Shown here: positions 9,804 to 12,287 of the stretch, piece after piece | Layout: each line of letters opens with the position of its first letter | Position numbering within the stretch: the first letter of the stretch is position 1 | Source of the DNA: Eubacterium sp. | GTDB taxonomy: Bacteria > Bacillota > Clostridia > Eubacteriales > Eubacteriaceae | Direction of reading: 5' to 3' | Length of the DNA: 51,896 nt | NCBI GenBank assembly: GCA_030524435.1 | Contig: JAUNGS010000007.1 | Span: 1-51,896, forward strand | Notes under the pieces: generated by a model | Databases searched by the model: none | What the model was told of the DNA's origin: nothing | The model's input: only the letters and a program-made list of their open reading frames with translations | Program-made: the position numbers and the translations under genes

Positions 9804-9832
9804 TTGCTTTTTTTCGGACACTGTGATATAGT
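9804..9832 (+). promoter_or_regulatory. Promoter of the queuosine-salvage operon
   Basis: TTGCTT (9804-9809), 17 bp, TATAGT (9827-9832). It begins just after the glmM stop and produces a leader of about 290 nt carrying the preQ1-I aptamer. Confidence 0.65.
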
Positions 9833-9885
9833 TTCTAAACGAACAGAAAATTTATAGTTCAATTTAAATCCGCAGGCTTCTGCGG

Positions 9886-9923
9886 TAGAGGTTCGTAACC
9901 ATCCCTCTATAAAAAACTAAGGA
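9886..9923 (+). ncRNA. PreQ1-I riboswitch aptamer
   Basis: TAGAGG (9886-9891), a 12-nt loop, CCTCTA (9904-9909), then an A-rich tail TAAAAAACTAAGG. This matches the class-I preQ1 aptamer: a five-pair stem with the AGAGG start, followed by the AAAAAACTAA tail that makes the H-type pseudoknot. It is preceded by a perfect CCGCAG/CTGCGG hairpin and followed by two more hairpins (9932-9950 and 9959-9983). Outer strands 9859-9868 and 9986-9995 can close the whole domain. An intrinsic terminator follows at 10002. PreQ1 is the precursor of queuosine, which fits the downstream genes. Confidence 0.88.
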
Positions 9924-10001
9924 AATGAGAAGGCCGGAGATCTTCTGGCCGCCAATACAGGGCTTGGATTTTGTCCGTGGCCCGCTTTATATTGATTTCT
10001 C

Positions 10002-10030
10002 AGGACGCAGGTTACACTGCGTCCTTTTTT
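10002..10030 (+). terminator. Riboswitch-controlled intrinsic terminator
   Basis: Perfect 9-bp stem AGGACGCAG/CTGCGTCCT with a 6-nt loop, followed by TTTTTT. It lies about 80 nt after the preQ1-I aptamer and about 100 nt before the nucleoside hydrolase, so binding of preQ1 probably favours termination. Confidence 0.88.
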
Positions 10031-10127
10031 AGATATGTCTTTTTTTCCTTTTATTTTTATAGAGTTTTCGCCGAACCTGCAACAATCAGAGAGGAGATGG
10101 GCGAAAATTATTTTCACCCGCAATAGC

Positions 10128-11111
10128 ATGACAAAAAGAAATGTGATCATCGACTGCGATCCCGGCATCGACGACGCCTTGGCGCTGATGCTGGCCTGCG
10201 CCTCTGAGGAGCTCAATATTTTGGGCATCACCATCGTCTCCGGGAATATCCGGGGTGAGCAGTGTGCAGAAAATGCCCTCCAGGTGCTCAAGCTTATGGG
10301 GCGGCTGGATATCCCGGTTTATCTCGGGGAGACAAGGCCCTTGAGGCGGGATATTGTGGCGGCGGAGGAGACCCACGGCGACGACGGTCTGGGGGGCGTC
10401 ACCCTGCCGCCGGTGGAAGAGGTCCGCTATCAAAAGGACGCCATCGAATTTTTAAGAACCTCCCTGACCGAAAATGAGGACGTGACGGTGCTGGCCATCG
10501 GGCCTTTAACCAACATCGCCGTGCTCTTGGAGAAGTACCCCGAGGCGGCCAGGAGAATGCGGGAGCTCATCTTTATGGGGGGCGCCTTCAAAAGCCACGG
10601 CAATTGCTCGCCGGTGGCGGAATTCAATTTCTGGGCGGATCCCGATGCGGCGGGCTATGTCTTAAACCATCTGGGACGTCCCACAACCATGGTGGGCCTG
10701 GATGTCACCCGGGAGGTGGTGCTGACCCCCAACTACAGGGAGCTTTTGCATCAGCTGAAGGAGGCACAGGCGGATTTCATCGTGGCCATCACCCGCTTTT
10801 ACACCGACTTTCACTGGGCCCAGGAGCGCACCCTGGGCTGCGTCATCAACGATCCCCTGGCGGTGGCCTACCTGCTGGATCCTTCCATCTGCGGGGGAGA
10901 GGACTACTACGTGGACGTGGTCACCGAGGGCAAGGCCATCGGCATGAGCATGGTGGATGTGGGCGGTATTACGGGGAAGGCGCCCAACTGCCGGGTGCTG
11001 ACCCAGGTGGATGCCAAGGCCTTTATGGTCCTGTTTTTGAACCGTCTTTTTCCGGCGCACCGCCGGGATATCGACGCAGTGCTCGACACCGAGCGTTATG
11101 GAAAGCTCTAG
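10128..11111 (+). CDS. Nucleoside hydrolase family protein, probable queuosine hydrolase (QueK-like)
   Basis: 327 residues. The inosine-uridine nucleoside hydrolase signature DCDPGIDDALALMLA stands at residues 8-22, with FMGGAFKSHGNCSPVAEFNFWADPDAA near residues 150-175 and a late NDPLAVAYLLDP calcium-site motif near 240. Members of this family cleave the N-glycosidic bond of ribonucleosides. Clostridioides difficile uses one (QueK) to release queuine from queuosine, next to an ECF transporter QrtT. Here the gene stands between a preQ1-I riboswitch and an ECF S-component, so the same role is likely. The start is uncertain: the ATG at 10128 has no close ribosome site, while GAGGAG at 10091 directly precedes a nine-codon ORF (10097-10126) ending 1 nt before it. 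A general purine or pyrimidine nucleosidase is the alternative. Confidence 0.82.
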   Translation: MTKRNVIIDCDPGIDDALALMLACASEELNILGITIVSGNIRGEQCAENALQVLKLMGRLDIPVYLGETRPLRRDIVAAEETHGDDGLGGVTLPPVEEVRYQKDAIEFLRTSLTENEDVTVLAIGPLTNIAVLLEKYPEAARRMRELIFMGGAFKSHGNCSPVAEFNFWADPDAAGYVLNHLGRPTTMVGLDVTREVVLTPNYRELLHQLKEAQADFIVAITRFYTDFHWAQERTLGCVINDPLAVAYLLDPSICGGEDYYVDVVTEGKAIGMSMVDVGGITGKAPNCRVLTQVDAKAFMVLFLNRLFPAHRRDIDAVLDTERYGKL

Positions 11112-11123
11112 GAGGTATTACAG

Positions 11124-11678
11124 ATGAAGCTCACTTCTACAAAAGCATTGATTTTTATGGCCCTGTCCGTCGTCATCAACTTTATCGGCTGCTTTTTAGC
11201 CCTGGTTATCCGGGTGCCCATCTACCTGGACTCCATCGGCACGGTGCTGGCGGCCACCGCCCTGGGCCCCCTGGGGGGCGCCGTCGTTGGGGCCCTGACC
11301 TCGCTGATCAACGGCATCACCACGGACCCGGTGTCTCTGTACTTCATGCCCACCCAGGTGGTTCTCGGCATTATGGCCGGTATCTTTTTCGGAAAGCTGG
11401 AGCTTAAGGGCGCCAAGGCTGCTGCCGCTGTATTTTTCATGGGGGTGGTGGTCTCCATCCTCTCATCCTTTATTGTGGCCCTGGTTTTCGGCGGCGTCAC
11501 CTCGTCGTCCTCCAGTCTCATTGTGGCCTTTTTGAAGAATATGGGGGTAGATCTCTGGCTGGCGGTCTTTGTGACCCAGATTGTCACCGACGTCATCGAT
11601 AAGTACGTCTGTGTGGGGCTGGCCTTTGCCATCGCCAGGGCCCTGCCGATGACCCTGAGACAAAAATTTTCCCTTTAA
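11124..11678 (+). CDS. ECF transporter S component, probable queuosine/queuine precursor transporter (QrtT-like)
   Basis: 184 residues with about five to six membrane segments, the size of a vitamin ECF S-component. The LDSIGTVLAATALGPLGGAVVG segment near residues 33-54 and a later FMPTQVVLGIMAGIF segment resemble the S-component fold. It starts 12 nt after the nucleoside hydrolase with AGGAGG, in the same preQ1-I-controlled transcript. Substrate binding proteins of this kind need the shared ATPase/T module encoded elsewhere. Import of queuosine, queuine or a related deazapurine is inferred from the riboswitch and neighbour. No QueL-type radical SAM gene is present in this window. Confidence 0.8.
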   Translation: MKLTSTKALIFMALSVVINFIGCFLALVIRVPIYLDSIGTVLAATALGPLGGAVVGALTSLINGITTDPVSLYFMPTQVVLGIMAGIFFGKLELKGAKAAAAVFFMGVVVSILSSFIVALVFGGVTSSSSSLIVAFLKNMGVDLWLAVFVTQIVTDVIDKYVCVGLAFAIARALPMTLRQKFSL

Positions 11679-11795
11679 GCCCCAAGCTGAAAAGGGAATT
11701 ATATGCAATTTTTTACGGTAATAGTAGCTTGACAATCCTTTATATTAGGCGTTAAACTTGACAGGAAGAAATTATTAGTGAAGGAGCTCCTGGAC

Positions 11796-12287
11796 ATGAA
11801 TACTATTATCAGTCAACTGGTCGGTGAAATGATCGATTACCAGGCGGGTGATCCCAAGCGGATCGGCCACCTTTTAAAGGTATACGGCTTCGCCAGCGCC
11901 ATTGGGAAAAAGGAGAAGGTAGATGAAAGCCTGCAGAAAACCATAGAGATCGCGGCGGTACTCCACGATGTGGGGATCAAGCTCAGCGAGGAAAAGTATC
12001 ACTCCTCTGCCGGCAATTATCAGGAAATTGAAGGGCCGCCGGTGGCCAAGATGATGATGCAGCGTCATAACCTGCCCGAGGCTTTGATAGAGCGGGTTTG
12101 TTTTCTGATTGCCAATCATCACACCTACGGCAGCATTGTAGCCCTCGATTATCAGATTCTCATCGAGGCCGATTTTCTGGTCAATATCTATGAGGGCAGC
12201 TATAATAAAAAGCAAATAGAGAGTATCTATAAAAAATACTTTAAAACAGAAACAGGCAGGCATTTTTTAGAGACCATGTATCTCTAG
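11796..12287 (+). CDS. HD-domain phosphohydrolase family protein
   Basis: 163 residues from the ATG at 11796, which has AAGGAG 9 nt upstream; an in-frame GTG at 11778 has no such site. Metal ligands of the HD superfamily are visible: an early H in RIGHLLKVYGFA, the HD pair in AAVLHDVGIKLS near residue 50, later paired His in NHHTYGS, and the terminal Asp in EADFLVN. Such proteins hydrolyse nucleotides or cyclic nucleotides; the substrate is unknown. It lies about 120 nt after the S-component and TTGACA at 11729 with a poor -10 box may give it its own promoter, so membership of the queuosine operon is possible but unproved. Confidence 0.7.
   Translation: MNTIISQLVGEMIDYQAGDPKRIGHLLKVYGFASAIGKKEKVDESLQKTIEIAAVLHDVGIKLSEEKYHSSAGNYQEIEGPPVAKMMMQRHNLPEALIERVCFLIANHHTYGSIVALDYQILIEADFLVNIYEGSYNKKQIESIYKKYFKTETGRHFLETMYL

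Follow-up and report, generated by a model that had tools for sequence, protein, structure and literature searches.

The window, a 51,896-nucleotide stretch of Eubacterium sp. DNA, carries a preQ1-I riboswitch followed by genes for a nucleoside hydrolase and an ECF transporter S component. Judged by sequence comparison, these genes very probably constitute the uptake and nucleoside-cleavage arm of an indirect queuine salvage pathway, which is controlled by a preQ1-I OFF switch and whose lyase gene, queL, lies outside the operon. The control of iunH genes by preQ1 riboswitches is already known, as is the queK-qrtT-queL operon (CD1682-CD1684) of Clostridioides difficile under a preQ1-I riboswitch (PMC11477304), and QueK, QueL and QrtT have been characterised (PMC11477304, PMC11570991). 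PreQ1 riboswitches before iunH were described for many Firmicutes in 2013, with a suggested role in biosynthesis or salvage (PMC3766115); that paper names the gene iunH only, and the terms 'nucleoside hydrolase' and 'QueT' are absent from its text. The window shares with these loci the riboswitch family in front of an iunH-family gene. With the C. difficile operon it has in common the aptamer before a hydrolase and an ECF S component, the lack of detected preQ1 synthesis genes and a QueL in the genome, but queL is here carried by another contig, away from the riboswitch. The C. difficile system was compared by its description, with Peptostreptococcaceae operons as a proxy on the sequence level. 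What sets the present case apart is that queL of Eubacteriaceae stands outside the regulon.

The riboswitch leader

An earlier note on this DNA had claimed a clear preQ1-I aptamer and a terminator ahead of a nucleoside hydrolase and an ECF S component, which it read as a queuosine salvage pair. The Rfam search that it proposed placed the aptamer at 9882-9926 on the plus strand, with 58.3 bits for RF00522 (cut-off 39), full-length coverage of the model (1-45 of 45) and an E value of 2.2e-9 in the search of the window. It is the sole preQ1 aptamer that the RF00522 search detected in the 2.16 Mb assembly. Directly 5' of it, folding yielded a short G+C-rich hairpin on the same strand (9870-9885, CCGCAG-GCTT-CTGCGG), which shares the first four positions of the Rfam match. 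The terminator was recovered at 10002-10030 (plus strand) as an intrinsic terminator with a 9-bp stem, a 6-nt loop and a T run; its stability of -17.2 kcal/mol corresponds to a z-score of -6.1 and was equalled by none of 200 shuffled sequences, and it is the likely expression platform.

In constrained folds of the leader, the terminator survived when the aptamer tail was sequestered, and the tail paired with the U run of the terminator once the 5' arm of the latter was blocked. These model structures are compatible with a switch without proving one, and transcription attenuation is the most likely mechanism. An antiterminator formed by GUAACC of the aptamer and GGUUAC of the terminator loop was rejected: the pairing comprises here 6 nt only and is not above chance. 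A pairing of this type extends over 10 nt in the leaders of E. aggregans and E. barkeri. A Shine-Dalgarno-like AGAGGAG is located 31 nt ahead of the hydrolase ATG (window 10089-10130), a spacing that is shorter in E. callanderi. The interval contains a 9-codon reading frame (10097-10126) and a small hairpin GGGCGAAAA/TTTTCACCC, whose stability does not stand out from that of shuffled sequences (z -1.3).

The nucleoside hydrolase

The gene at 10128-11111 on the plus strand, with its refined start ATG at 10128 and the stop codon at 11109-11111, encodes a QueK-type nucleoside hydrolase of 327 amino acids (PF01156, IU_nuc_hydro, 324 bits). With RihA, RihB, RihC and UriH it shares the fold family PF01156 and the N-terminal Asp cluster DxDPGxDD. 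It differs from them in its position in a separate clade, in an Asn-Asp instead of a His-Asp and in NCBIfam scores below every cut-off for RihA, RihC, UriH and ribosylpyrimidine nucleosidase. The best PDB matches are RihA-type enzymes with about 200 bits. A maximum-likelihood tree was calculated for 97 hydrolases, including 11 other nucleoside hydrolases, RihA/RihC-type enzymes among them. The window enzyme fell inside an 86-row clade (97/96) that takes in the QueL-linked homologues and none of the 11 others. The Eubacteriaceae hydrolases, that of the window included, are positioned at the edge of this clade; thus the enzyme is close to the QueL-adjacent ones, not nested among them. Identity as RihA or RihC was ruled out by the NCBIfam cut-offs together with the tree.

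The alignment placed the Asn-Asp (10848-10853) where His-Asp is usual. His-Asp was present in nine of the 11 other hydrolases; all 49 QueL-linked rows had Asn-Asp, as did 83 of the 85 clade homologues besides the window enzyme. The two exceptions, L106 and L141, are also without ECF and QueL neighbours. In this family the His of the pair acts near the leaving base, and a 7-deazaguanine as leaving group could be in keeping with the loss of this His. The Asn-Asp is a possible sequence signature for the separation of QueK from generic nucleoside hydrolases. The assignment of the window enzyme to the QueK type, with queuosine as predicted substrate, is supported by these comparisons.

The ECF S component and the downstream gene

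A QrtT-like ECF transporter S component of 184 amino acids is encoded at 11124-11678 on the plus strand (PF12822, 45.9 bits). The protein reaches none of the NCBIfam cut-offs; its top match is NF045596, the CD3073 family, with 97.7 bits versus a cut-off of 180, and folate S families are also among the sub-cut-off matches. Since no NCBIfam family is reached at cut-off, the predicted substrate rests on the context. An ecfA-ecfA'-ecfT module is present in the same genome on contig C55, beside a truA-like gene. The third gene of the riboswitch operon is not queL, an HD-domain gene following downstream (window 11778-12287). This gene is syntenic in four Eubacterium genomes; the surroundings of the operon in E. 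aggregans and E. barkeri yielded no such gene.

Conservation of the riboswitch unit

RF00522 was detected in 10 of 67 genomes of the order, nine times above cut-off, including Eubacterium callanderi, E. aggregans and E. barkeri. The hydrolase-ECF pair followed the aptamer in all ten, the hydrolase being in pieces in one assembly (G057). In G060, from another family, a short radical-SAM gene is the third gene of the operon. A scan of GTDB species genomes provided 80 related loci, mostly from Clostridia and lactobacilli. An ECF gene adjoined the hydrolase in 75 of these, and a QueL gene was located directly downstream in 48. RF00522 reached the cut-off before at least 60 of the loci, three of them from Eubacterium, a lower bound as some loci are cut short upstream. 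The unit spans Clostridia, Lactobacillaceae and Enterococcus. With the neighbourhood and the QueK-type clade, the queuosine salvage of the earlier note is well supported, and the two observations that would have counted against it were not made: the aptamer passed the Rfam model and the hydrolase stood apart from the RihA/RihC-type enzymes tested.

QueL and other queuosine genes in the genome

The radical-SAM protein of the G060 operon has a homologue with 43 % identity in the genome of the window, encoded by queL on contig C68 (C68:10079-10777). The only PDB match of this protein is 6P78, 'Queuine lyase' (E 1.3e-45); the two are alike over nearly the full length including the CX4CX2C motif, and differ in genomic position. 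The absence of a QueL lyase, as claimed before, thus holds for the window and its operon, but not for the organism. The one radical-SAM match within the window was dismissed as a QueL candidate, being nrdG-like and beside an nrdD-like gene. An adjacent queA-tgt pair was found upstream of yajC on contig C73, and queG is present on contig C10. Hence tgt/queA, queL and queG all lie on contigs other than that of the window, in agreement with the statement that no queuosine synthesis gene was in view. The genome search suggested for tgt, queL and queG/queH was successful for tgt, queL and queG, and in addition for queA; queH was not found in the genome.

Neither was queF, and for queC the genome gave weak matches only, the best with 25.8 bits versus 185-200 bits for true QueC elsewhere. 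In relatives, one weak QueC match fell in an mnmA-like gene. De novo synthesis of preQ1 was ruled out by the weak-only QueC matches and the lack of QueF. The assembly (2.16 Mb) is 81 % complete, which makes absences from it weaker evidence; complete relatives agree on the lack of queH and of a true queC (for queC: G042-G045). The parts of the salvage pathway are all present in the genome. The pocket motif of the TGT is GGLSVG. Queuine-inserting TGTs have GG[LS][AS]G, and in the E. coli-type motif GGLAVG the Val is predicted to block queuine (PMC11570991). By this motif, the TGT of the genome would be of the preQ1 type.

Within the order, QueL was present in 14 genomes, all ten riboswitch genomes among them, and the QueK-type hydrolase in 13, each of which also had QueL (13/13; related genomes each counted). 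Both proteins thus occurred together in 13 of the 14 genomes having either. The queL genes of Eubacteriaceae (L057 6706-7781; L058-L067) have a conserved neighbourhood, usually after an ArsC/Spx-like, HAD-type or phosphatase-like gene. Seven queL loci were searched with RF00522, and none gave a match that reached the cut-off. With queL apart from queK-qrtT and from riboswitch control in Eubacteriaceae, a queuine lyase can be overlooked if only the operon is read.

The proposed salvage pathway and alternatives

In the proposed pathway, the S component together with the shared EcfA-EcfA'-EcfT module would import queuosine, queuine or preQ1. The QueK-type hydrolase would cleave queuosine to queuine, and QueL, encoded on another contig without riboswitch control, would convert queuine to preQ1. 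The preQ1-type TGT would insert preQ1 into tRNA, where QueA and QueG would rebuild queuosine. Binding of preQ1 would stabilise the aptamer, the downstream terminator would form, and the operon would be off when preQ1 is plentiful. The substrates, the OFF polarity and the order of the steps are what we infer for this organism. With QueL elsewhere in the same genome, the pathway appears ordinary and complete. Eubacterium would join the predicted queuosine scavengers of the indirect type, as in C. difficile.

It is improbable that the hydrolase serves a route independent of QueL, freeing queuine for direct insertion by the TGT or releasing preQ1 or preQ0 from their ribonucleosides. Such a route would agree with a queL outside the riboswitch operon and without a preQ1 riboswitch of its own, and with the several lactobacilli and enterococci that possess the unit without an adjacent queL, but QueL is encoded here as well as in all riboswitch genomes of the order, and the Val in the TGT pocket is that of preQ1-type enzymes rather than of the queuine-inserting ones. 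The TGT pocket and the finding of QueL, QueA and QueG in the genome speak against direct queuine insertion, which would also leave queA and queG without a role. The chance is similarly slim that the hydrolase and the S component of Eubacterium are tuned to another 7-deazaguanine nucleoside, e.g., preQ1 riboside, with QueL acting independently, a specialisation that would explain the position of queL outside the regulon.

A generic RihA/RihC-like hydrolase with a purine or pyrimidine S component, placed by chance behind a preQ1 riboswitch, is very unlikely. The RihA-type enzymes among the best PDB matches point in this direction, as does NCBIfam, where the only families matched, none of them at cut-off, are Rih/UriH, CD3073 and folate S. 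A chance arrangement is made unlikely by the conservation of the unit with its aptamer over Clostridia, Lactobacillaceae and Enterococcus, by the frequent QueL gene in these loci and by the co-occurrence of the QueK-type hydrolase with QueL in the order; the tree position and the Asn-Asp signature argue against a generic enzyme. Indirect queuine salvage by way of QueL is thus the reading we prefer.

Riboswitch-hydrolase-ECF units without an adjacent queL were observed in Lactobacillaceae and Enterococcus (L080, L104, L107, L124, L127, L131, L140, L143, L144 and L147), and these are a better place to seek a QueL-free route. A further unit, L183 (NZ_CP050502.1, 24842-31792; RF00522 45.5 bits), is flanked on either side by an IS5 transposase gene and carried by a conjugative Lacticaseibacillus paracasei plasmid, thus the riboswitch unit may move horizontally.
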